From Quercus robur (lineage: Eukaryota > Streptophyta > Magnoliopsida > Fagales > Fagaceae): a stretch of DNA of 64,000 bases. The translations under genes and the position numbers were made by a program. The stretch lies in NCBI RefSeq assembly GCF_932294415.1, contig NC_065535.1, forward strand, positions 69,619,362-69,683,361. Reading direction: 5' to 3'. The notes below the pieces were generated by a model that worked only from the letters and a program-made list of their open reading frames with translations, was not told the DNA's origin and did not search any database. Of the stretch, positions 1 to 55,363 are shown one piece after another; positions within the stretch are counted from its first letter, which is position 1, and each line of letters opens with the position of its first letter.

Positions 1-461
1 ACAACAACAACAATAAAAATAAAATAAAATAAAATAACCCAAAAGAATCAAGGTATTATTGGAGCTGGTTTGACTTTTGAAGAACAAACACAAACACAAA
101 AAGAGGCTTACAGTAACAGAAAGGAATTGACGAAAAAGAAAACCTAGAGAGAAGGGAAAGAAATGGGTTATATGGAAATTAATTAGTACGCGAAGATTGT
201 ACCTTTGCTTATTTTTGAGGATTGTGAAGACGAGCGTAGCGATCTCAGTGTGACGGTGGAGTAGTTGATCTGAGCCTTTTCGCTTTCACGTGGTTTCTAT
301 ACGATCACACGAAAGCCCACAGTAGTTTTTGTTTTTGTTTTGTTTTTTTGTTTTCAGGTTGTTGTTGTGTTGGACTATGAATATGATTATGAGAGTCACC
401 GGTAACGGAGATATATTGGGCCTCCGAGCCCAATTGATTTTATGTGAATGAGCGATTTGGT
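1..461. other. Left flank of the giant MULE; possible gene-proximal DNA
   Basis: No convincing coding region. The stretch has a (T/G)-rich tract near 325-370, a CACGTG G-box core near 289 and GGGCC/GGCCC motifs near 418-432, which are common in plant promoters and 5' regions. On the minus strand 180-290 looks like a 5'-UTR with a possible GT donor. The right-hand flank beyond 20924 continues with similar GT-rich text, as expected if both were one locus before the MULE inserted. Pack-MULEs are known to favour gene 5' regions, so this may be the edge of a host gene lying off the left side. That is inference. Confidence 0.3.
452..461. repeat. Target-site duplication, left copy
   Basis: GCGATTTGGT lies directly outside the left terminal inverted repeat. 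The identical 10 bases lie directly outside the right one at 20915-20924. MULEs make 8-11 bp duplications, so this pair marks a single insertion event for everything between. Confidence 0.93.
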
Positions 462-625
462 GGCCAAAATGGCCCATTAGCATTAATTTTTGAAATATTT
501 AGGCCCGAAACACTGTTTGGAAAATATATAGGAAACTATCACTTTTTGTGGTACTCGAGCTTGGTGAGCTCGAGTACCCCATTTTTCTGTTCCAGCGTGG
601 CACCTGACGTGGGCATCTGAATTTA
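462..625 (+). repeat. Left terminal inverted repeat of the MULE
   Basis: It begins GGCCAAAATGGCCCATTAG and runs to about 625. It matches the reverse complement of 20751-20914 with 7 mismatches in 164 positions by eye. It contains a 29-bp quasi-palindrome at 550-578 (arms GGTACTCGAGC and GCTCGAGTACC). A second, looser copy of the module follows just inside, near 640-666. Confidence 0.93.
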
Positions 626-1403
626 AAAAATAAACTTGGTACCTGAGCTCATGAAGCTCGAGTACTGCTCAGCCATGTCTGCCTATTACCCCACACTTAA
701 ACCATCTGTTACCCACAATATCCAACCCAGAACAGAGCAAAACATACCCATAAACACGAAACCTCTCAATCTCGCTATCTCCCTCTCTCAATCTAAAGCT
801 ATTTCCACACAAATACTCTCATTCTTCCTCTCAATCTCGCAAATTCTCTCATTCTCCCTCTCAATCTCGCGATCTGCCTCATTCTCCGTCGCTGTCTCGC
901 TCTTGGTCTCCCTCTCGCGCTGATGCTCACGCTCTCGGTCTCCCTCTCACAAGGTATGTCTCGCTCAGCTTGCATGTTCAGCTTGTGGGTATTTTTGTTT
1001 GTAAATTTGTGATTTTTATGCATAGTTTGATTCTGGGTTTTGATCAATTTAGTTAGTTAGTTAATATATATATTTTCGGTGATTACTAGAATGTTGGTCT
1101 GGTTGTGCTTGTCTTTTAGGTTTTTTATTTTCTATTAAGGGAAAGACTTTCAGTGTTCTACATGAGTGTACTACATGAATATAAGCACACTTTCAGCTTT
1201 GTTTAGTTTACTATGCCCAGGTTTAAGCCAATCCCTTAGGCTGATCCCATCATTGAACCGTTCAGGACCAGACCTATCAATTCTATGTGTGCAAGACTGA
1301 CCATTGTTGGCACTTAATTTTATAATGAGAAATATATAATACAAATGCATAAAACATGTTTTGTAGTATTGCTGGTTCCAACTTCCAAACATTTTTTTTT
1401 TTT

Positions 1404-1640
1404 TCAAAAATTCTTGTAGTTGGATTTGAAGTTTAGACTTAAAATATGGGTTTCTTCAAGTTTCTGTAAGACTTCTTCCATGTTTGGTCTTTCTTGTTCA
1501 TTTGGAGTAGTACGTTGAACAGCTATCGATAATACATTTTGAAATTCAGTTACAATATAAGCCCCACTTAAGCATGGATCTGCCATGGCACTTATGCTTC
1601 CTCCTTTCATTATTGCATTCCTCGCTTGTATCAGTGACAA
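1404..1640 (-). pseudogene. Receptor-like protein kinase, C-terminal fragment
   Basis: The minus-strand reading frame contains SGAYIVTEFQNVLSIAVQ followed by NEQERPNMEEVLQKLEE. This matches the last kinase subdomain (XI) of plant receptor-like kinases, where the invariant Arg of RPxMxEV sits. Only about 60 residues of kinase-like text are present, with no ATP-binding or catalytic loop, so it cannot be an active kinase. Further minus-strand text at 1171-1330 could be adjoining gene sequence, but I do not recognise it. It lies just inside the left TIR and reads toward it. The simplest view is a host gene fragment captured by the MULE. The exact source kinase family cannot be told from this short piece. 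Confidence 0.5.
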
Positions 1641-1986
1641 TTGACAATAGAAATATATTCAGCTAATCTGCTGGAATTTACCATCTTAGGTGAAAAAACT
1701 ACTTATAAAATAGTAACATGCTAAACTATATGGGAGACAACATGTTAAATAGAGCATACCTCTTTAACTTTCTCCTGCCCCCTTAACCAAATGACATCTC
1801 CTGCCCCCTTAACTTTCTGAGTCTCCCTCTCACTTTCTGAGTCTCCCTCTCACTTTCTCAAGTTTAATTCAAATTTTTTTATTGAAATCAGTGAAGGCTA
1901 TATTAGATATATATTATTGCCATTTTCAGAAAAATTTGTTTATAATTAAAAATAAATAAATAAGACTGTCTTGCTGTTGTCTCCAA
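1641..1986. other. Non-coding stretch before the PMD gene
   Basis: AT-rich, with a small tandem repeat of the phrase CTCCCTCTCACTTTCTGAGT around 1800-1860. No open frame or RNA gene is evident. It presumably holds the promoter and 5' leader of the downstream PMD gene. Confidence 0.4.
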
Positions 1987-4815
1987 ATGCCAGATATGGA
2001 CCCACATGGAGCAGGACCCGCTATACAGACTTTGTTGACGAGGCAGGATGAGCATCGTTCAAGTTTGCTTTGGGATGCGCATTTGGAAGGCGAGGTATGC
2101 ACTTGTTCAATATATGAAGTCGAAAGATTTTTGGAATTTAACTTTGAAGCGTAATTATTATGTGGTACTGTAATTATTATTAATATTACGCTGCTCTATT
2201 TGCAGGAAGTGCCAGATGTATTGACTTGTCGTCACCGAGATAAAGGTCTGCTTGAAGGTAGGGTAGATGGGTTAGATCCACGAATTGTCGCTTATATCAC
2301 TGATGCGGGGTTAGATGGGCTACTTCAGGTCCCACATATGGACATTGACCATGCATTGATCATAGCGTTGGTGGAGAGATGGCGGCCGGAGACGCACTCA
2401 TTTCACTTGCCCCACGGTGAGATGACCATCACACTACAAGATATGGAGGTTATAATGGGGGTACCTGTAGATGGCTTGCCGTTGGTGGAATGTATACCCT
2501 CGACAGGCAGTTGGCGTGACGTCTGCCGTAGATTGCTAGGGCATATACCGCCAGATAGAGAACTTGGTCATAATAAGAACACTGGAGTGCTGGAAGGGGC
2601 GAGCATAAAAGCCAAATGGCTTGGGGATCGGTTTAGTAACCCTCTCCCGGTTGACGCCCCTGAGGCGCTTGTGTAGAAGTATGCTTGTTTTTACATAGTG
2701 GAGTTGTTAGGTAGTACGCTATTTATGTACAAGTCTGGAGAACGGATCTCAATTAGGTATCTGCAATTTTTGGATCTAATCAGCAACGGAAAGAAGTATA
2801 GTTGGGGTAGTGCAGCACTAAGTTGGCTCTATAGACACCTTTGTAAGGCATCAGAGAAGACAACCAAGCAGATCGACGGTGCACTGCTATTGGTGCAGTT
2901 GTGGGTGTGGGCGAGGTTTCCCCACATATGTCCTGTGATGAGGCATCCACACCAGGCATTGCCTCCAGGTCCACTTGCTGTCAGGTATGTAGCATCTTAG
3001 ATAGTTACCGTTTTACATTTCCTCATCAACTTTGTTTGCATGGGAATTATGTAAGTAACTAATATGAAGGTAATGTCTGTGTTGTTTGCTAGATGGAAAG
3101 GGGCTAAGATAACAACTGAACATTCAATGCACGTTCTACGTGCCTATCGTGTGTCGCTTACTTCACTACGGCCAAATTAGGTATCATGTCTTACAAGTGG
3201 GAACCGTTTTGGCATGTAGTTTTTGTACTGACAATTCACTTTGGAATGAATAAACATTTTTTATTTCAGAGTTACATGTATTGTTCACATTCGTTACACA
3301 TTTTTTCTAATTATATTGTTAATATGGTTGTTTGCATCTGTTGAATCATTGCAGATTGTTTGGGAGCCGTACAGAAATTATTCGCGTTCTCTACCCGCAT
3401 ATTGTACGACAGGCCAACACATATGGAGGTCTATTGTGCTGCTCATACATTTTTGGGTGGTTGAAAGTCATCATCCTGAACATGTTCTCCGACAATTTGG
3501 GATGAAGCAAGGCATACCAGTCGATATTGATACTTCAATTGAATTGCACAAGATCACCCTCCAGGGCAAGCATCATGAAGATTGGGCCAAAGTACATGCC
3601 CCGCATATTGCTAAATGGGCTGCGCACGCTAGAATTGTCGATGCACCGGCCTTTCATGGGGAGATGAGCTACAATGACGAGTATATGGTGTGGTTTCGTC
3701 CCTGCACTGTTCGCCATATTACAAAAGAGACTTCGTACTGGGACACTTTGGTAAATTTATAAAGACTGTTGTTTCGTTATAAATGTACCTTGCTTCGCAT
3801 AGTTTAGTTCAACCTACTAACACTACTCTTGTATATTTGTGACAGGTTCAATTGCAGTTGAGCATTATAGCGAAGTGCGAACCAAGGTCTGAGATCTACA
3901 CCGACTCTATTAATGCCTTGCAAGCTGTTGAAGAGATTGGTCGGTTAATCTTGGACCATGCACATGATGTGGGCAACACAAGTGAACCGGTTGTACGGCG
4001 TGGTCGGCAAGCAGGTGGACGTCAAGGGCATGGAGGTCGTCAATCTAGTCAGCGTCATTCATCTAGTCGGCCTCCCACATCTAGTCAGCGTCACACACCC
4101 GTGCCCACATCTAGTCGACGTCCCACATCTGCTCAGCGTCCTACATCTGGTTCGTGTCACACACCCGTGCCCACATCTAGTCGGCGTCACACACCCGTGC
4201 CCACATCTACTCGGCGCCACAGACCCGTGCATGACCACACCATGGAGGAAGCAAGTCAGACAACAGATGAGATGTGTTTGGACACTACTTATGACATAGG
4301 CTCTATGGCACACGATGATGCGGGTCCATCCTATACGTTTGCCCATAGAGACACATCTGGGTCCCCATCCATGAGGAGCAATGGTACTTGCCCACCCACA
4401 TCCCCTAGTACATCTCTGTTGCCCACCACCCGTACGTCTCCCCCACTGACTGCCGGCCCTGCCCCCGCAGTTGTAGATGGTAGAGATGAGATGAGGTTCA
4501 TGCCCACTCCTGGGCGACCCACCCCTGTTTCTGTCCCCCCTGAGTTTGTGCATACCGAGTTCATCCAGACACAGATACCCACCCCCCCAGCAGAGCCTTC
4601 GCACATCGAGGATCGGCCACAAAGGCCGCAATGCACACGGACACATCGTCCTGACTGTGGGACTGGACATGGTACTATAGTTTGATTCGATACCAATTAC
4701 ATATACATCGCTTTATAGTTAAATCATTTGCATGTTAATATTTGCTTGTGTTGTGTTCTTTTCAGGCAAGGTGAGACCAGTCAAGGAACTGGTGAGGAGA
4801 AGAAAACGAGAATGA
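1987..4815 (+). pseudogene. Plant mobile domain (PMD, MAIN-like) gene carried by the MULE, broken by two stops
   Basis: Six exons can be traced by reading-frame continuity and GT-AG sites: 1987-2094, 2206-2984, 3093-3180, 3355-3750, 3846-4671 and 4766-4815. Together they would code for about 748 residues. The text RIVAYITDAGLDGLLQVPHM, HDWAKVHAPHIAKWAAHAR-like text in exon 4 and the WRPETHSFHLPHGEMTITLQ stretch are hallmarks of the plant mobile domain, the family of MAIN and MAIL1. That family acts in nuclear gene silencing and genome stability and is often found inside transposons. Exon 5 adds a Ser/Thr/Pro/Arg-rich low-complexity tail with repeated PTSSRR/HTPVPTS units (about 4020-4230), and exon 6 ends in a basic KELVRRRKRE. 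TAG stops at 2674 and at 3178-3180 interrupt the frame; each could have come from CAG by one C-to-T change. All splice phases still fit, so decay looks recent. The initiator could also be the next in-frame ATG at 1996. Confidence 0.82.
4020..4230 (+). repeat. Degenerate short tandem repeat in PMD exon 5
   Basis: Repeats of CACACCCGTGCCCACATCTAG and shorter variants encode alternating HTPVPTSSRR and PTS/RPTS units. It is a coding minisatellite and probably length-variable. It explains the misleading open frames on both strands here. Confidence 0.7.
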
Positions 4816-6579
4816 TTCAAGAATGGGCAAGAATTTGTGCTACTTTGGGTTTGTAATGGTATAGGATCTTCTTGTCCTTTGGTCATATATTTTTTGTAGC
4901 ACATATCTTTTGACAATGAACTTGAAGATTTGGGCTTACAAGCTAATATAGTTTTTTGTTCGTAACTTGCAAAATTCTGGCAATGAACTTCAGAAATTTC
5001 CATTTCAGACCTATAGAATAACTTATGTCCATTATTTTTCAGTTGCACAACTGTTTTTTTGCTAATAAATTTAGGAAAATGTGGTATTTGGCCATTTTGG
5101 CTGGTAGTCAGGTCTATAATAAAAATTGACATACACTTCAGCTCAAGAAAAACATCCCTTCATATAACATTGTTTTTGGATTGGTTCATTTGCTTTATTA
5201 ATTTTTTAAATTTTGACATCGATTTTAGCCTAAATTTTGAGGGGGTAGGACTTGTTATTAGTAATTGGGAATTGAGTTTAGAAAGTTTGGTGGTGGATAA
5301 GTTTCCTTAGAAAGGTGAATTCCCATAAATTATTTGCTCTATAGGTTCACAATTGTTCTATGGTGTGGGAATAGAAGTATTTAAACAATTAGGGGTGGAG
5401 ATGATAGCTTAGAAAGTGGCTGGTGGTATAAGAAAGAAGCTGCATTTACACAGATTCCGTCCCTTCAACCTGAACACTCATTGATTGGAGGACTTACGCT
5501 TCTCAAGAGTAGTATTGATGCAACAATATTGAAAGTCAAAAGGTCCTAACATATGGCAACAATTATCTCATAAGTACAAAGGTTAGTGTCTTGCACTTGT
5601 CATTGATACATTTTACTTGTGATAACTAGGAATGTATGGAAAGGTTATTTCGGTACTTGGGATAAAACAACTCATTGTTCTCTTGCATTCCTCTTAATTG
5701 TTGTTTTATTTTTGCTTTTGCTTTGCTTTAGGTGTATTCCACATCAATGGCAATGCCACTGACGACAGTTCTGTCTCTATTCCTCTTTGATTTTAGGCCA
5801 ACGTTGCAGGTAAGATTCCATGCCTATGAAGTTTATAGGCATCAATAAATATTCCCTTGTATCCTATGTTTTGCGAGTGCTGCACATTCAATTTATTATT
5901 ATTATTATTATTACATGTTTTTGTATTGTACCATATTCTTTTGTAGCAATTGCACTGTAAGATTTTGTATCAACTGTTCTCTTGTAGTCCTTTAGTAGGC
6001 TATATATATGAAGGGTTACTAAAGCCTGATTTGAAATTTCTACTTTCCCCCTTGGGGCTAAAACAATTTTTGTTTTTTAAATAAAAAGAACAGAAAATCC
6101 TTAATCTGGTTTGGAGGTGTGGGAAAGCTTAGCCTGAGGAAGTGATAAAAGTAGAAGATTGGGTTAGAACAGGATTTGTTATGCTGCAACTTATAATCTT
6201 AATTTCTCAAGCTCCTTTTTGTTTGTTTCTTTTGTATACTTCCTTTCTATTTGAAATGGATTGCATTTAGCACTTCACATTCGGAATTTACTATCTTGAA
6301 ATTAATGGTATAAGTTTTATATGTTGCCTGTTACATGTGGAGCATTCATTCATCTTGTGGAAAATTCATGATCTTGTAGGAATAGCTTTATATGTGCCAT
6401 ATTATATGACATTGTTATCTTCCTATCAGGGTTGGTTCTAACACAATAAATTAGTGTATATGTTATGTGTTTTTGTAATATATGTTGGGTAAAGTTTTCT
6501 TTATGATGCCATCTTTGATATCAACTTCAATGCTATATTTTTGCATGAGCGTTGGTTTGACAAACTTTGTGTTTCACAG
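4816..6579. other. Region between PMD gene and PBA1 fragment
   Basis: AT-rich, no confident gene. At about 5080-5100 the phrase TATTTGGCCATTTTGGC resembles the reverse complement of the MULE terminus and recurs at about 13662. A possible exon lies at about 5733-5812: a (T)n-TTTAG acceptor, open text, then TTGCAG/GTAAG. It does not match the PBA1 protein and I cannot name it. The PBA1-derived part may begin as intron shortly before 6580. Confidence 0.4.
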
Positions 6580-7026
6580 GATCTGGTTCTAGTTACTTGT
6601 ACGGGTTTTTCGATCAAGCATGGAAAGAAGGAATGACCAAAGATGAAGCTGAGGTATGTAGGTCTTGATCTTTGTAAAGGCAAAATTAGTTAATGCCTTT
6701 TGAGGTGATGATAAAATACTTTCAAGTTTCTGTGAACCTGTGACCTCATTATTATGCTTGCATTAGTAAACAACTGAAGGTTACAATCAGGGAGAAGTAA
6801 TAAACATGACAACCTATTTTTTTTATATTTGCCTTATTATTTCCCCCTTGGCTGTATCTGAAAAGGTCAACTGCGATTTAAAAAAAAATTAGTATAGGAA
6901 GAGTCATGATGACAGTTATTTCTTTTCTTTTCACTTGTCATTACTTATTACAAAAGGAGGAATATGTGTGTAATGATGGAGTACGAGGGCAAAACATTTC
7001 TTCTAACTCATACTCTCTCATTGCTC

Positions 7027-7064
<38 letters not shown>

Positions 7065-7432
7065 TATAAAACTGTTGTTTTTTGCCGTACTTTTTAGGCT
7101 CTTAATTATTTTTTGGTGTTTTACTGCAGCAATTAGTGGTTAAGGCAGTTTCCCTTGCCATTGCGCGTGATGGTGCTAGTGGTGGTGTTGTTCGTACTGT
7201 CATTGTAAGATTTCTGCTAAGCATTTCCAAGTAGATTCTTTTTTACCATTCAGTTGCTCACAAATTGACTAAAACCCCTTGGTCTTTGATGTTCTTGCAG
7301 ATAAATTCCGAGGGAGTGACAAGAAATTTCTACGCTGGTGACAAACTTCCCTTGTGGCATGAGGAATTGGAGCCACATAACTCACTTTTGGACATACTGA
7401 ACTCAACCAGTCCTGAGCCAATGAACATATGA
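6580..7432 (+). pseudogene. 20S proteasome subunit beta-1 (PBA1 / PSMB6-type), last three exons captured by the MULE
   Basis: Exons 6580-6653, 7130-7204 and 7301-7432 are bounded by clean AG/GT sites and read without interruption to the TGA at 7430. The text [20 protein letters not shown], then LVVKAVSLAIARDGASGGVV, then [15 protein letters not shown] and a terminal NSLLDIL is unmistakably the C-terminal 40 per cent of the caspase-like beta-1 subunit of the 20S core. The N-terminal part, including the catalytic Thr1 exposed after propeptide removal, is absent. It therefore cannot form a protease site even if translated. Introns are retained, so the capture was from genomic DNA rather than from mRNA. 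The fragment lies in the same orientation as the upstream PMD gene and could be spliced into a read-through transcript. Lack of stops suggests recent capture or some constraint. Confidence 0.88.
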
Positions 7433-7790
7433 AGTGGAGGAATCATAATGTTGATAGGCTTCTAGCCTCACTTTAGTTATTTTCTCAAACCTGCTACATC
7501 TGTTTTCCAAACAGGAATGAGATTTTAATCACTTTATATTTGAGAATGGTTCATGTACCATATCTTGCTGGATATATTTCTTATTGGTGTCATCATTATC
7601 TCTTCTCTGGGCTAATTAGAGGTTTGTGGAAACTGGAAATAGATATATTTGCACCTCATCGAGGGTGACGTTTTTGATTCATATATTCCTGCTCATTGGC
7701 CAATGTTTGGATTTTAGATTTTAATACTTATATTTTAGTAAGGTGATAAGCAAGTAAATTCTTATTTCTTGTGATTCCTTTTTATTGAAA

Positions 7791-8060
7791 AGAGGCTGCT
7801 GATTTGTATCAGCCTCTTTTCAATTTATATCCAGATTGGTACCCGAGCTTGGTGGGCTCGGGTACTTTGTGAAGTACCCGAGTCCACCAAGCTCAGGTAC
7901 CAAGCTGGATATTGAAAAGAGGCTGCTAATTTGTATCAGCCTCTTTTCAATTTATATCCAGATTGGTACCCGAGCCCACCAAGCTCGAGTACTAATCTGC
8001 CTATTTCAAAACTTACGCAGAATGTACCCGAGCTTGGTGGGCTCAGGTACTTCACAAAGA
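7791..8060. repeat. Hairpin-module cluster 1
   Basis: Palindromic modules of the form GGTACCCGAGC...GCTCGGGTAC are repeated. Two modules form a larger inverted repeat: arms 7836-7865 and 7874-7903 around the 8-base loop TTTGTGAA. A further module lies at about 7965-7992 and another at about 8023-8050. A longer unit with AGCCTCTTTTCAATTTATAT is directly repeated at 7811 and about 7938. The modules resemble the quasi-palindrome within each TIR. Confidence 0.85.
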
Positions 8061-8420
8061 CCGCCACCAAGTACCGTAGAACTTGGTTGGCGTAAATTAT
8101 TATTATTATTATTATTATTTTTTTTTGATTGACGAAAAAGTAATGTACAATGAAGCCAACGTTTTTTTTTTTCTTTATTTTTGACATGAGAATAAATAAA
8201 ATCCAATTATATCAGGACACGTAAGTTCCCACAGTTTTTATAAAGTGTTTGTAGTAAAATTATAAATGCCATGTCACTTTTTCGTTAGCCACATAAGTAT
8301 TATTTTTATATTGTACACACAAACTTCCACACACATTATTATTTACACAAATAACATTATAACAAAAAATAATGCACACAATCAATATTACATACACTCT
8401 CATACACATATAATATAAAG

Positions 8421-8601
8421 AATAATGCTAGAGATACAAACTAGTTTTCAAATTTTTTTACAAACTGCTGTTGTGGTGAGTGATTAAGCTATTATGAAAA
8501 AATGCATATTAATGGTAGGCCTAAATAAAAACCAATAACAAGTTGGCCACATCAACATTTTGTACAAATTGTAAAATAGTTTATGGTTGTAACATTACTC
8601 T
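8421..8601. mobile_element. Small MITE, about 180 bp
   Basis: It starts AATAATGCTAGAGATACAAA and ends with the approximate inverted copy (reverse complement AGTAATGTTACAACCATAAA). No coding capacity. A more diverged relative may lie at about 37676-37805. It is nested inside the MULE. Confidence 0.55.
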
Positions 8602-9131
8602 AATATAAATTTATGACAGAGTGACACTTACAATCTACAAACACTTATTCTAATCTTCAAACAAAAATGAAAAAAAAAAAAAAGATAATAAAAAATAGCT
8701 ATAAATGAGCAATTAATCTTCGAAATTTAAGTGAAATTCACCTTTTTTCCTGCCCACTTGTCTGACGCCAACCACTAACTTAAAGCAAATGGTACCTTCT
8801 GAGTCTCCCTCACCAGCTTACTTGTAGAATTTATGACCATAATGACTCTTGCACTAACATCACAAGTCCATGTGAAGAGTGAGTTGTTGCCATGTGAAAG
8901 ATTACTGAAGCTATTTACAATTGTTGGGTCACCATCTGCAGATGAACTGTGTCAGTTTTTTCCATTGAAGGCAAACCATTTAACCTTTGGGTCCTGACTA
9001 TTGTATACATAGAGGTAAGTTAAATGTTTTGTCTGATTGTGTGTGCATGTGTGGTTCGTATGACATTATTTTTGCATGACCATAGTTCATGAGTTGAGTT
9101 TTTTGCAAGACCCTGCGTCCATGTACAACTG

Positions 9132-9162
<31 letters not shown>

Positions 9163-10266
9163 GACTTACAAGTTATCTAAACAAATGGAGCAGAACTATA
9201 TTGTAACAAAATATTGTAAAGAAACAATTGCAATTAGAAGCATATTTTTTTTTTACCTGAAAAGAAAGAAAAAAAAAACCATTTCATAATTACTAATAGT
9301 TGAAAGAGAGATAGTAAATCCATAAATTATTATATGCTTTAGAAGAATAATACATATAGTTTAGACATGTACTTTGATTCCTTTTCCTTCAAATAAATTA
9401 AGAAAAAAGAAATCATGTATAAGTTTTTATTTAATTTTGTGAAATCTAAAAATATTAAAAATATAGCAAATACTTGTAAAGTTGTGTATATATCTTGCTG
9501 TCTGATTGCTTCTTAAAATATGCCCCATTCAGCATTTACTTCTCTATCCTTCTAAATATTTAAAATTGAAGTTTATAACAAAAATTCAGAATTTAAAATT
9601 GTAAAAAAATTTATAGATAACTGTATTGTTCACATTCATTTATGGGTTAAGCTATGTATGAGATAAGCAAGAAAGGCAAGTGCTGTGAATAGTGATATTG
9701 GTAAAGAAAATGAACGTGTATACAATATCAAAATTCATTTGGGGGGGGGGGGGGGCACAATTAACATAAACTATATCTAAATAACAAAAAACTCAAGAAG
9801 AAGAAAGAAATTCGTATCATTAAAACTTATATTTGCCTATGCTTTGGGGAATTCATTTTATATTTTATGTTTCTATGTATTTAGTTATTTAGATGTAAAA
9901 GAATTCGTATCATTGTCATTATATTTGCCTATGCTTTGAATCTTAAATTTTATATTTTATGTTTCTATGTATTTATTTATTTAGATGTAAAAGAATACTA
10001 TGTCATTGTATATTGTTTATTCTATAATTTATAAGTTATCTAAATATTAAATAAAACACAGTTTTTGTTAACAATTTGCTGGCAGCCAAGTATTGTAATT
10101 AAATCTATTATAAATTATAGATATGTGGTTAAAACGATTGAAAATTATTTATATCTCTATATAGAAAGTTTAGGAGGTTGAGTTTGAATATAAATTGTTT
10201 TTATCATATGTCATCTTTTATTTAAGTGGTTATAGATGATGACACCTTTTATATTGTTAATAACAG
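8602..10266. other. AT-rich non-coding stretch upstream of the transposase
   Basis: It holds (TA)n at about 9137-9162, a run of 15 G at 9741-9755, and a directly repeated phrase ATATTTGCCTATGCTTTG at about 9828 and 9925. No gene is seen. Just before 10267 a TTAATAACAG acceptor suggests an upstream non-coding exon for the transposase gene. Confidence 0.5.
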
Positions 10267-13207
10267 GTCTGTGATGGATTTTCACTTTTTCTATCTGTAC
10301 TACGACGGGGAGATGTATTATCATGAGTTGCATGGGTTGTCATACCAAGGCTCGAACCAAAAGCAAAAATACGTTAAGGTGAAACGTGGGATAGGGCTTA
10401 CGAACTTGCAATGAAGAATATTGAAGGCGATGGGGTTAGACCACTCTAGGCATAAGATTTCCATCGTGTATCGAGCACCTCAACGGGTTGTAGACACGCA
10501 GGTTTTCTACAATTCACTACAATTATCGGGTGGCACCGAAGTGAAGATGATGTGGGAAATGGTTGCACAAATGGTGGCTTGAGGATTCATTGCTTCGGAT
10601 CTCTATGTCATTGTTGAGCCCGCCACAGTAGAGGCTGGAGAGGGTTCAGAACATACTGTTTTGGATGGAAGAGTAGATGAGCACATCGACTCAATACCAG
10701 AAAGATCTTACCAAGGGTGTGTAGAGAACACAGGAGATGGGTATGGCAGTGAACCGTGGCAGACATTTGCCCATGTGAACTCGATTGAGGATGAAGAAAG
10801 GCCCCAGCAAGTGCATGAAGGAGAGCATTTAGTTGATGATGAGCTCCATAAGAGCACATCCGACAATAACCATAATGATCACGGACTTGGTGATGATGCA
10901 ACCCATATCGATGTTACTAGGGATGACTTCGAGGAGCTCCTAGATACCATGGGAGGATGTTGATCATATCGAAGATGTGGTTGTAGAAGAAAATAGAGAA
11001 ACATGCCCCGGTCTCGATCCTACGCCGGAATGGTTCACCCAAAACACTTGGGATAATATGTTTAATCCATCACCGGTTATGCAAGCAGAAGTATTACCAT
11101 GGACGCTTGGGGAGCAGCCAGTTAAAGGGATGGTATTCGCGACTAAATTGGCAGTGCGACGTGCGTTGACTTGGTACGCAGTGCGAGAGAATTTTAGCTT
11201 CAAAACTAAGCATTCAGATTCAGAGAGGCTTATGGTGAGTTGCGAGGATGATTCCTGTCTATGGTCAGTCCGTGCGATATGTTGCAAGGGAGACAATGTC
11301 TGGAAGATCGCAAAATGCAAGGGCCCCCACACGTGCGACAAAATTCAGAATGCTCATGATGGTCGGATGATTGATTCGGTGTTCTTAGCATATGTACTTG
11401 AGCGCTATATACGAGAAGACCCTGCGTATAAGATAAAGAACTTACGCCACGTTGCTTTGGTAGACTTAAAACACAAAGTATCTCATTACAAGGTATTCTA
11501 TTCTTTAACTTGCATTATATTTTCAATACAATGTAGAGACATCAGTCTTTTGGGAAGTATAATCATGATATTTTTTTTCCCAAAACCCATGAATACTTTA
11601 TATTATGAAAATTGAAATTGAAAAAAGAAAAGAAAAAAAGGAATGCAGAGTGAAGAAATATTATAGTCTTACAAGTCTTGATTTGTTTTCTTCAAGTTTT
11701 TTTATTTAACTTGTATTCATTTCTAACGTAATCATTATGGTTCACATACAAGGTATGGGATGCCAAACAAAAGGCCGTTGCATCTATATACGGGGATTTT
11801 AAGGAGTCTTATGCGGAGTTGCCGCGTTTTTTGGCAGGACTGAAGGACGCAAGTTCGGGTACAGAGTATAAGTTAATAGTGGACGATAATTATGAACAGG
11901 GAACCTGTACATTCAAGTTCGTATTTTGGGCGTTTCGTCCATGTATTGTTGGGTTCAAGAAGTGTAGGCCTGTGATTAGCATTGATGCAACCCACCTCTA
12001 TGGAAAATATAAAGGGAAATTGATGATTGCAATGGCGACAGATGCTAATAATAAAATTTATCCAGTAGCCTTCGCCGTTGTCGAGAGCGAGAGCACAGAG
12101 ACTTGGGGTTGGTTCTTGGCTTGTATAAGAACGTATGTTACCGACCGGAGACACCTGTGTGTCATATCTGACAGACACCCTGGGATACAAGCTATATTTA
12201 GAGACAATAATCGAGACTTTTCCCTGCGGCCTCCCATGACAGAACATCGTTACTGCCTTCGTCATCTATGTAGTAACGTCAACACTAGATGGAACAATGA
12301 AACTTTAAAGAATCTAGTATGGAGGGCAGCAAGTGCTACCCAGGAGCGAAAGTTCAATGCCACCTTCGAGTTAATTGAGAATGTCAACCGGGATGCGCAC
12401 CAATATCTAAAGGATGTGCCCAAAGAGAAATGGGCTCTAAGTTTTGACAAGGGTTATCGTTATGGGGCAATGACGACAAACGTCTCTGAGTGCTTCAATG
12501 GTGTTCTAAAGGGTGCTCGTAGCTTGCCCATTACGGCAATGGTGAAATACGCATGGTTCAAATTGAATTCTTACTTCGATGATCGTCGCAATAAGAGCAT
12601 AGCACAGTTAAATTCGGGACAAAAATGGACTAAATATGCCTTGGATATCTTCATGAGAAATAAGGCGAAGGCGAAGCATCACAGGGTGACAAGATTGAGC
12701 GCGCAACAACAATCATATCAAGTAGATACACCGCATAATCCAGAGAGTGCTGGACATGGGGATCACACACATGGAGTTAATTTGTTGCAAAGAAGTTGCA
12801 TATGTCAAAAATGGAAGCTGTACAAGATACCATGTTCACATGTCAATGTAGTTTGTATTAGGTATCGACATGATGCAGAGCAATACATTGACCCATGCTA
12901 TAGCGTGGATGCACTATTTCGGAGCTATGCTCTCGTTTTCCCTGCGTTGAAAGATAGATTATCATGGTTGGATCCTGAAGAAACTCGAAGGGTCCTCCCT
13001 AACCCCTGATTGATTCGAGAGAAAGGCCGCCCTGTCTCAACACGAATCAGGAATGAGATGGACGAGGGTGGGAAATGGCCGAGAACCACACCGTGGAAGG
13101 AGGGGGGGAGGAAGGTGCAATGCGGGTTGTGTGACCAAGAGGGGCATAACCGAAGAACATGCCCTAAGCGGAATGAGGTACCGACAAGTGGTGGTGTCAC
13201 AGACTAG
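10267..13207 (+). pseudogene. MuDR-family (MULE) transposase, decayed
   Basis: Exon A runs from an ATG at 10274 to 11492, and exon B from 11753 to 13207. They are separated by a phase-0 GT-AG intron (11493-11752). An N-terminal MDFHFFYLYYDGE segment is followed by an acidic linker, then the Mutator DNA-binding region (about 11100-11340). Next comes the MULE transposase core with the DDE triad: Asp in IDATHLYGKYKG (11984), Asp in ISDRHPG (12170) and Glu in VSECFNG (12488). A SWIM zinc finger (CICQKWKLYKIPCSH, 12797-12846) and a CCHC knuckle (CGLCDQEGHNRRTC, about 13120-13165) follow. The enzyme would cut and rejoin the element at its TIRs in the nucleus. In-frame TGA codons at 10412, 10580 and 13007 and a one-base frameshift near 10955 kill it; all three TGAs fit CGA (Arg) after C-to-T change. 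The catalytic core itself reads through. Confidence 0.88.
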
Positions 13208-14497
13208 GTACGCTAATTTTGAACCGTGGCATTCTTCTAAATGCAACTTGAAACAAAATGCATGCTATATGCCATTCAATTATGTATTTTTATAACTTAA
13301 GAAATATTGGAAAAAATTTTAAGGACCAAATATGACATATATCGTTAAAATATCATCGTTGCTTGTGTACATGTGGTTCATTCCAATTAGTCTCTTGAGG
13401 ATGCATACCCAATTCCAAAGTTTTGGGACTAAGACTTTGTCTTCTTATGCTTGGTGTTGATGACTGCATTATTTCTAGTGTTGATTTTGTATGTGTTGGA
13501 TCATTATGTGTAAAATGCTAATGCCCATTTCTTACAAGTGTTTTTCAATCGTATCTTCCATTGGATTGAAACAAAAAATAGGATTTGATGTGAATGAAGT
13601 GATAAGTATTCAAATTCAGCATGGTGAAGTCCTTATTTTTGCAAAATATTTAAAGAATTGATGGTATTTGGCCATTTTGGCCTATACCTTACTATGATTC
13701 ATTGTAATATGCATAGTTCTAATATCAAAGATGTAGCCATCAAAGACTTTAAATTGTAGAGGTAAGTCGACAAACCAAACTACGTAACCCCCTTGTGTTC
13801 TCTCTTTTTTTTTTTCTGCATTCTCCTTACAGTATTTTCTATTTCATTTTAAAACTTACTAGGAAATGAAAGAGCTATCTGTTGTTGGCATTTAAGGGCC
13901 CTGACAGACCTCTTTAACTTATAGCTTTTTTTTTTTTGCTAAATGTTTTCTAACTGCAGATTTTTTTATTTTATTTTAATTTTTATAGGATCTAACCGTA
14001 GATTGGTCATGAATAATATGTGCCATTTTATTGGGTCTGGGCTGATATATAATAGATTGGTCATGAATAATAAATTGGTTCAATTATTGCTCATGAATAA
14101 TATGTGCCAGTTTTAACATGTTAGGGAAATGTTTGCCCTCATGGAGTGATTATTTAGGATTCTTTTTGCTTTTCTTAATAATCCAAATGTCAAAATTTTT
14201 GGTTTTAAAATATGGGGGATAAAAGCTTTTATGTGAGCTTTAGGTATGTGGGTGATACCAAATTGCTATAGCAAGAACAAGCTTCAAAATCTACTTTCTA
14301 ATCAACTGATTTTCCCATTTATCTTCCCTGTCATTTATCTACCACATTGTTTAAAAAAAAAAGTAGGACTAGTTTTGATTTTGTGTAATTATTAGCATGA
14401 ACTTCCAGATACTAATACTATAGTCTATTTGTTAGATATTACTTCATGAGCATGACTACTACCTTGCTGATTTATCTGTTTCTGTTGTTTTCCAAAG
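13208..14497. other. Region between transposase and unidentified exon
   Basis: AT-rich and intron-like. It contains the TATTTGGCCATTTTGGC motif at about 13662, shared with about 5080, and several poly-T tracts. No reading frame of note. Confidence 0.4.
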
Positions 14498-14688
14498 GAT
14501 GCTTCTTCACATCGTCTGGAGGCTTGAGGAGTTATGAACACCCCCTCAATGAGGTGAAGCCTGTGCCAAGGGTGGACAGTTCTGGTCAGGTGTGTGGTGT
14601 AACTTTCACCGTGGATGAAGAGTCGAAGAGGGAAACTGTCGGCATGCCAAGAGTTGGAAGTGCTGCCAACTGGTCATCTAACTACTGA
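14498..14688 (+). pseudogene. Unidentified terminal exon, probably captured
   Basis: A clear polypyrimidine-AAAG acceptor at 14497 is followed by an open frame of about 63 codons ending TGA at 14686. It includes SYEHPLNEVKPVPRVDSS, VTFTVDEESKRETVGMP and the C-terminal RVGSAANWSSNY. Codon use and the exon-like start suggest a true host 3' exon, but I do not recognise the family. It lacks a start and has no partner exons I can find upstream. It sits inside the MULE downstream of the transposase in the same orientation. It may be a fourth captured gene, or an accessory transposon exon. Confidence 0.4.
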
Positions 14689-15290
14689 TATTGTTATAGT
14701 TTCCTTTTACGGCATGGCTGTCATTATTAGTGGGCCTTGCCTTTGATGTCCTTTTTCTTATCATACTACTCTAATCTTGAATGGCTTGAAAGCATTTTAA
14801 TTGGTGATTGGATTTATATCCTTTTTAGTACTACCAAAACAAAGACATGATTTTATGCTGCTGTACAATGTTGCGTAATGTCAAACTAAGCCAGGATCTC
14901 AAGTTTCATACAAGAAATAATATGATTGCTCTTTAAGACTGATATTGTGGTAGATTTGTATTTGATATATTTCTCTATTTTTATCGCTTATTGAATCAAG
15001 CTGTGATGATGATAATAATTACGGTCACATTCGTAATAACAAATAAAATCCATTTCTAAATAGTTGCCTGTTCACACAATAACCATTGCTAAGAAACAAT
15101 GAAGTCCATTGATTTTTAATATGGCTACTATATTCACCAAAGAAGTTAAAGATGTACATCTAGAGCATAGTTCAGGGCATACTCTTGCTCGATTGAAATT
15201 CTCAGCTATTTGTGAAGAAATCCTTGGCAGGAAAGGGACCTATCTGTGGAGCCCCAGAGTACAAAATCTGACAGTTTTCAAAATTAGGCA
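14689..15290. other. Non-coding stretch, probably 3'-UTR and spacer
   Basis: AT-rich with no open frame worth naming. The first part could be the 3'-UTR of the gene that donated the exon at 14498. It leads into the second hairpin cluster. Confidence 0.35.
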
Positions 15291-15550
15291 GATTGGTACC
15301 CGAGTTTGGTTGACTCGGGTACCTTGTGAAGTACCCGAGTCCACCAAACTCGGGTACCAATCTTGACAATTTTGAAAATAGGCAGATTGGTACCCGAGCT
15401 TGGTGGACTCAGGTACCTTGTGGCAGATTGGTACCCGAGCTTGGTGGACTCGGGTACTTCACAAGGTACCTGAGTCCACCAAGCTCGGGTACCAACCTGC
15501 CAATTTTCAAAATAGGCAGATTGGTACCCCGAGCTTGGTACTAATCTGCC
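15291..15550. repeat. Hairpin-module cluster 2
   Basis: Six copies of the GGTACCCGAGC...GGTACC quasi-palindrome. They form one large inverted repeat at 15293-15360, a single module at 15387-15417, a second large inverted repeat at 15428-15494 and a truncated module near 15521-15540. They are joined by the connector AAAATAGGCAGATTGG, also found (inverted) near 7998-8010 in cluster 1. Confidence 0.87.
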
Positions 15551-16138
15551 TACTTTTTTCAGAATATCTATTCTGAATTATCTCTACAAAGTTCATCTTT
15601 TAACCTAAAAAAAGATTATTAAAAAAAAATTGCTAGCAAGCAGTCATAAATAAAGATGCCTTCATTATTGCAATGTCAATATTTGACGTTATATAAAGAT
15701 GCACCCCACAAATGTGGGCACCAAATTAATAAAGATGTTTTTTTTCGAAGCATTACTCAAGTCTCAAAGACACACCCACCTAGTGGCACTAGTTACTAAC
15801 CAAAAAAATCTTAAACACTATATTAGCATAAAAAGACAAGTCTTAAACATAATAATATTATTTAGTAGCAATACAAGCTAGCAGAAAGAGAGGTAGGGAT
15901 GTAATGCAGTCCATTCATAGCACCATCAATGTGGCAACACTTGAAACTAATATAGGCCTCCATGACTCGTGGACACTCGGGACATTTCATATGCTCTGGG
16001 ATCTTTCCAGTAGTAATGGGGATATATACCCTACCAGGAAAACAAGATAAAACAATTAAATATTTGCATTCAACACAAAAAAAACCCAATACCACCACCT
16101 TGACAACCATCAACAAAATAAACATAGCTTATGAGAAC
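15551..16138. other. Non-coding stretch
   Basis: No supported gene. A minus-strand frame at 15862-16125 contains a short Cys-rich stretch (KCPECPRVME, then KCCHIDG), but it has no recognised family and no splice context. Confidence 0.35.
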
Positions 16139-16855
16139 TACAAATTCAAAAAATTCTAAACCATTCTCGTTATCATTTACCCTCATGCAAGAAATCATAG
16201 TCTTAGTCACATTGCTAAATGGCCACAGCTATAAAAACCATGTATTTACAACATACAATAAGTACAATAAAGTAAAACCATGTTAGAATCATAACATATA
16301 GAATAAACTTGTTTGAAATGTCTCAGAACATGTAATCAACACAATAAAAGTCAATACCGACTACCCAACAAAATAAAAAAGTTTACGTGAACTACAAATT
16401 CAACAAATTCTAACCCATTCCCATTATCATTGACCCTCATGCAAGAAAAGCAAACACTCTCAACCACATTGCTAATGGCCACAGCTACAAAAACCATGTA
16501 TTTAAAACATAGTATCAGTACAATAAAACTATGTTCAAATCATATTGTATAATATAAACTAGTTCAAAATGCCTTAGAACAAGTAAATTTCATGACTAAA
16601 AGCAACAGGATTTTTTTTTTCCTAGTCCAAGATAGAGAAACTTCAATTAAACTTAGCTACACTAAGTTCCAAAATCACCAACACAACCTCACAAGTCACA
16701 GCACCCACACAATCAAACTAGTTAAGTTCTTCACAACACATTATTCACCAAAAACTAAAACCCAAATAAAAAACTTACAAGAACCACAAATTCAATGAAT
16801 TCTAACCCATTCCCATTATCATTGACCCTCATGCAAGAAAAGAAAACAGTCTTAT
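16139..16855. repeat. Diverged tandem direct repeats, unit about 250 bp
   Basis: A unit that includes TCATGCAAGAAA and CACATTGCTAA...GGCCACAGCTA starts at about 16139 and again at about 16391. A third, partial copy starts at about 16785. The copies differ at many positions. They lie in the right arm of the MULE. Confidence 0.75.
16661..16779. repeat. Direct repeat, copy 1 (partner at 20063-20180)
   Basis: About 118 bp beginning ACACTAAGTTCCAAAATCAC is nearly identical to 20063-20180. The copies are about 3.4 kb apart in the MULE right arm and bracket the EngA fragment. Confidence 0.8.
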
Positions 16856-16859
16856 CCTG

Positions 16860-18210
16860 CCCTGCCTTGCCCTTATTATCCACATCATTTCCAAATTCCA
16901 ATTCTTCGAAAACTAAGCTGTAATCCCGAGGAATTGAGATTGGCTACATAAATCCTTTTATGCCTTCTAATTCTATGTATGACCATGTTGTCAGTTTCCT
17001 CTTTAATTGTCATTAATTTTTTATTTTTTTTACCTTCATTTTTTCCTTGTCTTTTTCCAGATTAATATTATACACTTGTATTAGTTCATTCCTACGCCTT
17101 CATTGCACATATCTAACCATCTCAGACAATTCTCCTCCATATTCTATCTTCAACTGATGCCACCCTCACATTCTCACATAGCTACAGCTAGGAATTTTTT
17201 CACATGGGTCTTAAATAAAATAAGTAAATAAATACATGGATTTGATAATATTCAGCTTAAAAGAAAAACAAAAAGGTGTTTGTTAACTATACTACAACCA
17301 ATTTCCATACTCATCAAACCAAGCACTATTGAATATCAATGAAAAAAAAATCCAATTTTCCTTCGTGGAAAGTTGCAGTCATGAGGTTAATAAGGACCCT
17401 TTTGTAAATATGCCCTTTTAACTTCATCACAATAATTTGGATGGCATTCTAAAATTTTAGCCTATAGCCCAAGATATACAAGAAGATTTTCCAAGTCAAC
17501 TTTAAGATGGATGGTTTTACTTTGAACAATTTTGTTCAGTTAATGTGACTACTACTTTCTTGGGCAAGTAGCATTTGTTTTGATATTGGTTTTCTCTTGA
17601 GAAGTTTATCCATAAATAATTCAAAAATAGCAACTTCAACACTTTTAAGAATTTAATTTCAATTTTTTAAATTAACAACCCAACATAAACTTTGCACTAA
17701 ACTAATAAAAAATGTAACTAAACCTGCCAATACTTAAATGAGTTTTATCTTTTAGGACCACTTTTAGAATTGCAATAGGATCTAATATTTTTTCAGAGGT
17801 TCTCACAATTGACCCCACAAAATAATAATAATAATTCAGTGGGTGCAATTGGACCCACTCAAAAATATGTGTCTCCGCCACTGCTTTCTCACAATCCTAG
17901 TGTTGCCACAAATCCAACTTAACATCCTCATTGTTACTACTCCTTTCATGGACATATTCAAAGAGGGAGTGGGTCCCTAAAATTTCAACATCTTTAGATC
18001 CAGTAAAACTCGAACTAAAACCGCATACTTTTGGCCAATATTGTATGTTATAAATACTGCAGCTCTATCTAACATAATAACATAATGAATTTGTTCTAAA
18101 TTGAATCTTTTCTCAAAAACTATGATAATGCATCACTGACAAAATGCATCAAAACACCCATGGTACACAGACTACCACCAATATGTATATATATATATAT
18201 ATTGTATTAC
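16860..18210. other. Non-coding stretch in MULE right arm
   Basis: AT-rich. It may include 3'-flanking or intron sequence of the captured EngA gene next to 18211, with (TA)n at about 18183-18201 just inside the intron. No other gene is visible. Confidence 0.35.
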
Positions 18211-18789
<579 letters not shown>

Positions 18790-20062
18790 ATTATTCACAC
18801 ACTTATTCACATATAAAGCATTCTAAGCCCCTTTGAAACTGATTACTACTTACTTTAATTGTTATGATTAACTTGATTAGTTTAAAAATTCTGTGAAAAT
18901 TTGATATATTAATCTACTTGATTCCGTATGTTACTACTAAGTCACAGGCCAAAAGAGAAAAAACTCAAATTTGTTAGAGACACTCTTTTCCTGTTTTGGT
19001 CAATGGAACTGGTTTGCAATCAATGGCCAGGACTGCTAAAAGAAGCGAGGGTGCGATCCACCACATGCACACGCACTTGAAACTGTGGTAGACTTTGTTT
19101 ATGATTTATATCGAGGAGCCAGAAACTCTGTGGCAGGCCCTCTTTATTTGAAAAAATATTTCAAGAGGGATTTTTGAGAAGTTGGTGGTTGGAAAAGCAA
19201 TCCTCAATTCCATATTTTCTCTCTTTTTTTTTTTTCAATTCCAAAACATGGTAGCTTTTGCATATCTTCAGTCTTATGTTTGAATCTTAGGAAACCCCTG
19301 TTCTGGTAATTTCATCTATTTCGCATGCTTACAGCACTAAGGTCTACACTAATATCAAGGTTGTTGGATGGGATTATACATGATGGGGGATGTTAGTGTG
19401 TTTTAAGCTTGGAAGAGGTGGCAGCCCACTTATTAGGGAGCTTACATAAAAAGACAGGAAACATGAAAAATATGGATTTTAGGGTGAGATGGGCAGGGGA
19501 TGCGCACCCTCAAAACCTTTTTCTTTTTCCCAGAGAATACACACCCCACAACCTTAATTATGGACTAACCTTTTTTTTCCTGTGAGGTGTACTTATTCTA
19601 GTAATGATCTCCTTTTCAATAATCAAATCCTAAACTGAATTTATACATTAAGAGAATCATGAAGCACATGCAGGAAACACAATTCTTGTGTCACCCCAAA
19701 GACAATGCATAAGACCATAATTCACAGTAATTTAACATTTAACTTGGTCCACATAAACACAATTATGTGGTCCATCTTATCTTAATTTGGTCCGTACTAA
19801 CAATGCCCCCCTTCTTTCTTTCTTTTTTTTAGTGGAAATCGCCATTTTGTTAAATGATAGATTTGTAGTAGTATCTCTTTTCATTTACAATGAATGCTGG
19901 GGGTTTAATAATGTGGATTTGTTTGTCTATAACGTAAGTTTACATTATTAGTGCAATTTAAAGCTATAAAAGTCTTCTATCACTTCTGTCAAAAAAAAAA
20001 AATAGCTATAAAAGTCCAAGATTTATACCTTCAGCCTTCAGTGCTTCCAATTTTTCATTCAA
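18790..20062. other. Non-coding stretch in MULE right arm
   Basis: AT-rich with poly-T tracts; nothing recognisable. It separates the EngA fragment from the duplicated segment at 20063. Confidence 0.35.
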
Positions 20063-20180
20063 ACACACTAAGTTCCAAAATCACCAACACAACCTCACAG
20101 CATCCACACAATCAAACTAGCTAAATTCTTCACAACACATTATTCACCAAAAACTAAAACCCAGATAAAAAAATTATAAC
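20063..20180. repeat. Direct repeat, copy 2 (partner at 16661-16779)
   Basis: The same roughly 118-bp segment as at 16661. Part of it (AAGTTCTTCACAACACATTA) repeats a third time at about 20204. Confidence 0.8.
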
Positions 20181-20245
20181 TTTTTTCAAAAAAATCAACA
20201 TGCTAAGTTCTTCACAACACATTATGCACCAAAATTCAAAAAAGT

Positions 20246-20750
20246 ATGAAATTTCTTGAAAATTTAAAACAAAAACCAAGACATGGAATTGCAGCGCCAA
20301 AACCAGTTGGATTAGTGAAAATTAAGAGAAAAAGAACTCAAATTTTTCGGAGAGAGAGAGCTTACAAAGCGCCATTGAAGGGGAAATGGTTCGTGTGGCG
20401 ACTCTGTGAAATGAAATTGAAAACCCTAATTGGTCGGAGACAGGGAGAAGTAAGGGCGAAGAAGAAGATGAGGACGAAGACGACGTCGCACCACTGTCAT
20501 CCAACGGAAAGTCCATTACCATCGCTCCTCCAACAACCACCACTTTCCCTTCTCCTATTCCCTCAGGCGTGACGGCGACGGAGACCACGATTCCACTCCC
20601 CCGGCCATCATCGATACGCGAAAGCGATCACAACGACGTTTTTTATTTCTGCTGCCAATGGTGTGAGGGTGTGAGGGTTTGAACGTTTAGGTGTAAGTGA
20701 GAGTGAGAGTGAGACTGTGTTCTGGTAAGGGTGAGGGTGAAGAGAGACCT
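20246..20750 (-). other. GC-richer segment, possible captured 5' gene end
   Basis: Base composition changes sharply from the AT-rich surroundings. On the minus strand, reading away from the right TIR, there are CT-rich leader-like tracts (about 20690-20730), several ATGs, a Ser-rich coding-like run and a (CT)n stretch near 20350. This is how a captured promoter/5'-UTR/first exon often looks in Pack-MULEs, and it would lie upstream of the minus-strand EngA exons. I cannot identify the protein. The plus-strand frame 20246-20572 is probably a shadow. Confidence 0.4.
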
Positions 20751-20914
20751 TAAATTCATATGCCAACGTCAGGTGCCACGCTGGAACAGAAAAATAGGGT
20801 ACTCGAGCTCACCAAGCTCGAGTACCACAAAAAGTGGTACTTTCCTATATATTTCCCAAACAGTGTTTCGGGCCTAAATATTTCAAAAATTAATGCTAAT
20901 GGGCCATTTTGCCC
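20751..20914 (-). repeat. Right terminal inverted repeat of the MULE
   Basis: Inverted copy of 462-625, ending GGGCCATTTTGCCC at 20914. The internal quasi-palindrome is at 20798-20826. Confidence 0.93.
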
Positions 20915-20924
20915 GCGATTTGGT
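20915..20924. repeat. Target-site duplication, right copy
   Basis: GCGATTTGGT, identical to 452-461. Confidence 0.93.
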
Positions 20925-23199: not shown

Positions 23200-23385
23200 C
23201 CAGCATTTCTCATTGTGAGATGTGTTACTTCTGCAACATTTTTCACAATAAATTATAGGTATTTAGTTGTTATTGGTTCAAATTTGAACCTACCGTTGAG
23301 ATTACTTTTTAGCTCCAATTTTGATGATTTTTTTTATTGTTATAATTATTATGTGCATATGGAAAGTTTGTTTATTTGGAAATAT

Positions 23386-30684: not shown

Positions 30685-31216
30685 CAAAATTTCATTCTTG
30701 GCACTAAGCAAAATATCTCTATAAAGTAAAGAAGATTCCCACGTTACAACTTTCAATATATGAGGAGTATGAAATCGGAAGAGCCTTATACGTTTAAAGT
30801 CTTAAACTACTGATTTAACACGTGACACACGCACCCCTAGTCCAGTGCAGTTCCCACCGGCTAAGGACTGAAATCAGCACTTGATGTAATTGGCACTTTA
30901 TTAAAGCCTTAAAGGGGCCATTTTCAAAATGAAATCACCTTTTGAGATGACTCGAAAAGGTTGTGTAGAAAAAAATTAATAATAAAAAAAAAGGTTAAAA
31001 ACATATAAGTGAAAAACCCTGAAAAGAATTAATAATAACAAATGAAAAGTACAAGTGAAAAAGAGAGGAGAATAAAAGTTGTCCTGACGAAGAATTTAAC
31101 CAAGTCGTTCTTTTTTATCTTAGGTTTGTGAGAAAATTCTTAAGTATCTTTGTAGTATAATGAAATAATTTTTTTTTTTAATTTCCTCTAATATTTATGG
31201 TAGATTCTTAAATAAA
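30685..31216. other. Non-coding stretch
   Basis: AT-rich; may contain decayed LTR-element interior. No coding signal. Confidence 0.35.
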
Positions 31217-31809: not shown

Positions 31810-31846
<37 letters not shown>

Positions 31847-46018: not shown

Positions 46019-46023
46019 ATTAT

Positions 46024-47129: not shown

Positions 47130-47145
47130 ATCTCCTCCTTTAGCT
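47130..47145 (-). other. Polypurine tract of the copia element
   Basis: On the minus strand CTAAAGGAGGAGAT lies directly before the 3' LTR, the expected plus-strand primer position. Confidence 0.7.
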
Positions 47146-55358: not shown

Positions 55359-55363
55359 ATTAT

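Follow-up and report, generated by a model that had tools for sequence, protein, structure and literature searches.

Host-gene capture by MULEs is already known, and so are families of the hAT and PIF superfamilies in which a constant core surrounds a variable interior (PMC2528002, as far as the excerpts of that paper extend). Pack-MULEs, in rice and others, enclose pieces of several host genes between MULE TIRs and a TSD in the available text of PMC8903248, PMC3310237 and PMC13317346, and the oak element described here does likewise; however, Pack-MULEs are devoid of transposase, whereas the oak family has both a transposase and a PMD (plant mobile domain) gene inside, and 9 of 14 copies compared are at least 20 kb long (20-29 kb). 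The PMD-bearing MULEs of plants, which are widespread, share with the oak family a MuDR-type transposase with SWIM, a PMD gene and a TSD of 9-10 bp, but neither copy-specific host cargo nor a comparable size is described in the portions of PMC6446971 and PMC5418596 at hand. The transposase-bearing grapevine families Hatvine-6 and Pifvine-3 also combine a constant core with a variable, host-derived interior; unlike the oak MULE, they belong to the hAT and PIF superfamilies, and the excerpted text of PMC2528002 reports no palindrome arrays in them. According to the fusion model for Pack-TYPE elements, in the sections of PMC8903248 available, neighbouring elements are mobilised as one and the inner TIRs are lost by deletion or mutation. 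Joint mobilisation is also part of the model that we propose for oak, but that paper illustrates it with elements that are short and non-autonomous. For Ssk-FB4 of flies, the accessible part of PMC8277862 proposes fork stalling and template switching (FoSTeST) to a host gene and cites the repetitive TIR in its favour; the oak family differs in that Ssk-FB4 is a Foldback element of an animal and involves a single gene. Enlarged CACTA elements of Chondrus, class II elements with 4-5 ORFs, are of similar size (16-20 kb), but they represent another superfamily and have extra ORFs rather than host-gene fragments, as excerpted from PMC6431247. Searches of the open-licence literature, to the extent that its text was available, revealed no MULE family this large that keeps transposase and PMD while host cargo changes between copies, and no arrays of a TIR palindrome around the transposase block.

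The window is a stretch of 64,000 nucleotides on contig C2 of the 786-Mb Quercus robur assembly, and it contains an element of 20.45 kb between TIRs (Table 1). An initial annotation of this DNA had described TIRs of 164 bp with 7 mismatches and a perfect 10-bp TSD; the TIRs proved to be 165 nt each, 95.8% identical with 7 mismatches, and the TSD sequence, GCGATTTGGT, occurs in the 64 kb only twice, as the two TSDs, against 0.08 occurrences expected, with none of 100 shuffles reaching two. A chance pairing of TIRs and TSDs is ruled out by this rarity together with the perfect TSDs of 13 of 14 copies (see below), and the claim of a single unit bounded by TIR and TSD holds. Membership in the Mutator superfamily (MULE) is indicated by the TSD, which falls within the 8-11 bp of that superfamily, by the long TIRs (165 bp here, and 624-663 bp with 98.2-99.8% identity in the four copies C40, C2b, C3b and C1) and by the Pfam domains PF10551 (MULE), PF03108 (MuDR N-terminal) and PF04434 (SWIM). 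Host-gene pieces lie between the MULE TIRs, as in a Pack-MULE, but the label "Pack-MULE" given by the initial annotation misfits the element because Pack-MULEs lack transposase by definition, and a transposase gene, though broken, is inside. The presence of PMD and a MULE transposase in a single TIR-bounded unit is what distinguishes PMD-bearing MULEs, and the element contains both. KI-MULE and VANDAL elements are recognised by a ULP1 protease domain and the lack of TIRs; here TIRs are present, and Pfam detected no ULP1 in 1000-10500 and 13701-20700.

Elsewhere in the window, a 553-codon open frame lies just beyond the element (21604-23262, minus strand), the end of which, by eye, resembles a LINE-type RNase H region. 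A 1.1-kb sequence is present as two direct copies (46022-47131 and 54251-55360, 96.7%) and a third, inverted copy (32476-33557, about 75%), and two adjacent direct repeats of about 0.4 kb (31216-31591 and 31593-32002) are 88.5% identical.

Table 1. Features of the oak element and its borders, in window coordinates, with the evidence for each
Feature	Position	Strand	Evidence
Left TSD, GCGATTTGGT	452..461		Sequence match
Left TIR, 165 bp	462..626	+	95.8% to right TIR
Block common to C40, C2b, C4a, C38L, C2c (about 97-98%) and C38s (96%); holds weak receptor-kinase piece	1176..1767	-	Copy comparison, PDB
PMD (plant mobile domain) gene, several exons; stop codon 2674-2676 in window copy	2155..4682	+	Pfam, copy comparison
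Possible remnant of an inner TIR tip, oriented as a right end, PWM 2.6	5058..5102	-	PWM
Piece matching C4:35156092 (94%) and C39:6022709 (91%)	5587..5833		Genome search
Captured segment with PBA1 exon; candidate donor C41:16400153-16402115, 92% over 1.94 kb	5840..7780	+	Pfam, PDB, genome search
Palindrome array A, 4 copies of 29-bp motif	7783..8057		Repeat and motif search
MuDR-type transposase gene; in window copy, frame shift (exon 1) and premature stop (exon 2)	10583..13006	+	Pfam, ORFs
Vestigial inner TIR tip, right-end orientation, PWM 26.8	13644..13682	-	Alignment, PWM
Dispersed repeat (MITE-like) within element	13851..14053		Genome search
Captured segment with aluminium-induced/DUF3700 exon; candidate donor C6:54001019-54002071, 92%	14110..15179	+	Pfam, genome search
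Palindrome array B, 5 motif copies	15265..15539		Repeat and motif search
Captured segment with SEO C-terminus; candidate donors lie in the C6 tandem cluster (40.29-40.52 Mb)	15578..16025	-	Pfam, genome search
Internal repeats, matched at C3:63.82 Mb (92%) and in part common to the other large copies	16028..16857		Self-comparison, genome search
Block with EngA/Der KH piece; collinear in pieces with C40:18241142-18244074, 85-95%	16860..19142	-	Pfam, PDB, NCBIfam, genome search
3' region common, whole or in part, to 12 of 13 other copies (about 93-99% by sub-block)	19444..20622		Copy comparison
Right TIR	20750..20914	-	Pairs with left TIR
Right TSD, GCGATTTGGT	20915..20924		Sequence match

The search of the assembly for further copies with matching ends, which the initial annotation had proposed, was carried out with the TIRs. 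The best 40 of 1157 first-look candidates were scored and gave at least 40 matches; by position, 17 facing TIR pairs and 6 single ends were among the matches listed. Fourteen of the 17 pairs, window copy included, were compared, and pairs of 2.1 kb (C41), 48 kb (C35) and 56 kb (C35) were left out of the comparison. The copies range from 2.7 to 29.4 kb, and the large ones lie at unrelated sites with different TSDs of 9-10 bp: perfect and mutually different TSDs flank 13 of the 14 copies, C40 alone having an imperfect one, and the sequence beyond the TIRs is not common to the copies in a comparison of nine. When set against the other 13, the window copy has 11-63% of its length in common with 12 and 4% with the smallest. 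TIR, PMD gene, MuDR-type transposase, DUF3700 block and 3' region form a collinear family core; the parts that a copy has always follow the full order RLK block, PMD, slot A, transposase, DUF3700 block, slot B, m1, slot C and 3' region. What had been presented as a lone composite is one decayed member of a multi-copy family.

The MuDR-type transposase reported inside the element is there, with DBD_Tnp_Mut, MULE and SWIM domains detected by Pfam at 10944-13006. Pfam also recognised PMD in three open stretches (2155-2673, 2677-2997 and 3250-3759), the first two of which are one exon interrupted by a stop codon. Of 11 copies that have the PMD exon tested, the window copy alone has a stop, and C4b has a one-base gap. 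The last PMD exon contains a tandem repeat (4043-4213, PTSSRRHTPV type), the copy number of which differs between elements. In four of the seven copies listed, C1, C3b, C2b and C40, which are 23.4-24.0 kb long, the PMD exons are open and so are both transposase exons, with ORFs of 465 and 491 codons; C3a is truncated, and C39 carries a stop in exon 2. The window copy is broken in both transposase and PMD, and is therefore a dependent, decaying member of the family. PMD is a gene separate from the transposase in the oak family. The initial annotation was right about its presence but had counted it among the captured host genes; a recent capture from the host is not supported, since PMD is listed as an additional ORF for several clades of plant MULEs (PMC6446971; PMC5418596, in the excerpts available) and occupies the identical place in 11 of the 14 copies compared. 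For transposase exon 2 of the window copy, dN/dS is 0.45-0.67 against six of seven copies. Purifying selection on the family genes is weakly supported by these sequence comparisons, because dN/dS is 1.28 against C39 and exceeds 1 in some PMD pairs.

Host-gene pieces in the window copy were sought in all six frames of 1000-10500 and 13701-20700 with Pfam, and by PDB and NCBIfam comparisons. Pfam detected an aluminium-induced/DUF3700 exon (14485-14613, E 2.7e-15) and the C-terminus of a sieve-element-occlusion (SEO) protein (15931-16032, minus strand, E 2.8e-6); these, along with the two inner TIR tips and two palindrome arrays, had been overlooked or left as an "unknown exon". Because the beta-1 proteasome exon (6567-6653, Pfam E 0.017) and the EngA/Der KH piece (18208-18318, minus strand, Pfam E 1.8e-4) score below the Pfam cut-offs, their matches rest also on other libraries: a plant beta subunit in PDB (E 8e-10) for the former, and for the latter GTPase Der in PDB (E 0.006) and TIGR03594 (E 1.3e-4, far under that model's whole-protein cut-off). 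The PBA1 and EngA/Der fragments named in the initial annotation are thus retained. Its receptor kinase stands in part, as a weak C-terminal piece (1407-1658, minus strand) that matches SYMRK in PDB (E 0.0013) but has no Pfam or NCBIfam match. One minus frame of 1000-10500 had no PDB match. The interval 16028-16560 was rejected as a captured gene, for it is continuous with an internal tandem repeat that is also present at C3:63.8 Mb.

Candidate donors with 86-92% identity were located for three window segments (SEO, DUF3700 and proteasome), although these loci might in part be copies themselves. Slot A of the window copy is made up of three abutting pieces, 5000-5598, 5587-5833 and 5840-7780. 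The first (for which the query started at 5000) recurs elsewhere in the genome, including C35 and C38, and the match of the proteasome segment extends to the final query base, 7780, with the repeat of array A beginning at 7783. The C6 match of the DUF3700 segment covers that segment without the adjoining MULE part of the query. A member of the SEO cluster on C6 (one read, 86.5%) has no other match in window positions 1-22000, and two loci on C35 and one on C37 also have the SEO segment next to array sequence. The Der block and its C40 counterpart are collinear in four main pieces; the donor is unsettled, because C1:5.50 Mb and C6:0.42 Mb also match the block in part and the three loci compete.

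Several of the stretches that separate the core genes have matches in host-gene families and at other places in the genome, and they vary from copy to copy. Slot A of C39 holds SEC61 alpha with the exons spaced as though introns were retained; its candidate donor is C5:51387794-51390518 (98%), C37:0.60 Mb being 93% identical, and the right edge of this cargo is placed where sharing with other copies resumes. C38s carries ATE1 and C39s a zinc alcohol dehydrogenase (Zn-ADH). Since other copies carry SEC61 alpha, ATE1 and Zn-ADH, a constant core with changing cargo is seen directly. Positions 280-8200 of the first piece of C40 (both strands) gave one sub-threshold Pfam match, NDUFB7 (E 0.03), and the part of the C39 insert examined in the plus frames gave no Pfam match. 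The TIR pairs 48 and 56 kb apart on C35 (C35:38876159-38924395 and C35:45356922-45413463) also contain SEO and DUF3700 segments and are possibly larger or nested elements. Annotated host-like proteins of other Fagaceae, P0009 (Castanea), P0011, P0118, P0125 and P0153 (Quercus suber) and P0031 (Fagus), match the family transposase or PMD; by name or Pfam they are lipase, endoglucanase, mutase, elongator and others, which suggests that similar cargo-bearing copies, or annotation fusions, may occur in those genomes.

Divergence is unequal along the element. Mismatch between the window copy and C40 amounts to 7.0% for PMD1 and 2.1% for TP2 (Fisher 8e-12), and the synonymous distance between the two copies is about 0.10 for PMD versus 0.025 for transposase. 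In the DUF3700 block, the window copy is 1.8% different from C39 and both are 6-8% from the remaining copies, and the C39 transposase is 2.2% from that of C40 and 2.9% from that of the window copy. This pattern points to exchange or conversion of modules between copies. Part of the PMD/transposase contrast could reflect differing constraint, and the mosaic may also owe something to unequal constraint or to the DUF3700 segment having been captured a second time.

A PWM built from all 28 TIR ends was used to look for TIR tips inside the element; its top background score was -15.5 in 43 kb of flank and -6.6 in 10 Markov shuffles. The tip ending at 13682 lies directly behind the transposase and is 84.6% identical to the outer TIR over 39 bp in right-end orientation. 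A tip of this type is also present in C39 (PWM 21.0). The tip ending at 5102, the score of which is modest, shares an exact 20-mer with that at 13682, and the inner tips match the outer TIR over 39-45 bp only. A comparison of the deletion junction in the window copy, C39 and six further copies revealed that in C40, C3b, C38L, C4a, C3a and C4b one common deletion joins window 13668 to 14296, the outer tip being gone. Fused Pack-TYPE elements are recognised by remnant inner TIRs at the joint; here two right-facing tips were found, while neither PWM nor alignment search detected a left-facing inner tip above the shuffle range, so that half of the remnants expected from fusion are absent. The tip at 13682 and, more weakly, that at 5102 support a putative fusion of MULE units.

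With up to 6 mismatches allowed, the window contains 12 occurrences of a 29-bp palindrome, all of them within the element: three in or adjoining the TIRs (550, 638 and 20798), four at 7838-8051 and five at 15295-15493. Among the 14 copies compared, two internal clusters bracket the transposase block in all eight copies that keep the full block, one cluster is present in three copies with a truncated or lost transposase, and three short copies have none. Two paired palindrome units fold as predicted DNA hairpins (-38 kcal/mol, z about -13). Similarity between arrays and TIR is confined to about 29 bp, and a full second TIR at the arrays was rejected because no more than that motif is common to both. 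The slot A cargo and the slot B cargo (SEO) of the window copy directly adjoin an array. One could envisage the arrays as docks for cargo, where hairpins of the TIR motif flanking the transposase block would break or stall forks and take up adjacent host DNA, so that the core remains constant while cargo is exchanged in an integron-like manner; the PMD protein or the transposase may bind the motif at TIRs and docks. We regard this proposal as speculative and rather improbable. The ATE1 and ADH cargo of C38s and C39s is in short copies without internal arrays; therefore, arrays are not needed for every capture.

Taken together, the 20.45-kb element in the window is probably a decayed copy, flanked by TSDs, of a giant MULE family with multiple members in pedunculate oak, the core of which would have arisen by fusion and the host segments been added by serial capture. 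The initial annotation had offered serial capture or fusion of MULE units, and there is evidence for both in the candidate donors and the inner TIR tips. Were the element instead an ordinary transposase-bearing MULE enlarged in place by nested insertions and in-situ gap filling, its cargo would never have moved. Such a history would accommodate the dispersed repeat nested at 13851-14053 and the blocks 4920-7783 and 16858-19142, which may have travelled with the element but are absent from the other 13 copies compared (no second copy with this set was found), although 5000-5598 recurs elsewhere in the genome. It is nonetheless unlikely, because the copies of 23.4-24.0 kb fall into two pairs, C40/C2b and C3b/C1, whose members lie at different sites and have 99-100% of their length in common, three of the four with their own perfect TSDs, and the large size and interior are therefore themselves mobile; furthermore, DUF3700 and SEO segments recur in several copies. 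An origin of the TIRs and TSD in some larger, unrelated duplication or in an assembly artefact is barely credible in view of the perfect, differing TSDs of 13 of 14 copies and of flanks that, in the nine copies compared, are not common beyond the TIRs.

Serial capture without any fusion deserves more attention, the inner TIR-like tips and the arrays then being terminal sequence copied inwards. The missing left-facing tip and the resemblance of the arrays to just the 29-bp TIR palindrome are in agreement with it, and extra or internal TIRs have been described in MULEs (PMC3310237, in the passages available). The tip at 13682, however, is directly downstream of the transposase in right-end orientation, and six other copies share one deletion at that tip, as the fusion model expects (PMC8903248, in its accessible text). 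We consider serial capture alone doubtful, though a possibility of some weight.

In the preferred model of fusion followed by capture, neighbouring MULE units would have been mobilised jointly to give the core, leaving inner TIR tips that later deletions are presumably erasing. Host segments would then have been added one by one, often beside the palindromic arrays that bear the TIR's own motif; most simply, the capture step may have been a break or fork stalling at hairpins with template switching, followed by transposition. Having lost its own genes, the window copy would now depend for movement on transposase supplied by intact copies.

The packFinder counting rules set aside transposase-bearing elements (PMC8903248, in the sections available), and rules of that type would miss the oak family. 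How MULEs pick up genes is still argued, with gap filling, fork switching and fusion of neighbours as the mechanisms under discussion. The oak family has a constant core, cargo specific to each copy, numerous large copies of graded age and, for one segment, a candidate donor at 98% identity, so that junctions can be read there before they decay, which makes it a natural experiment on gene pick-up by transposons.
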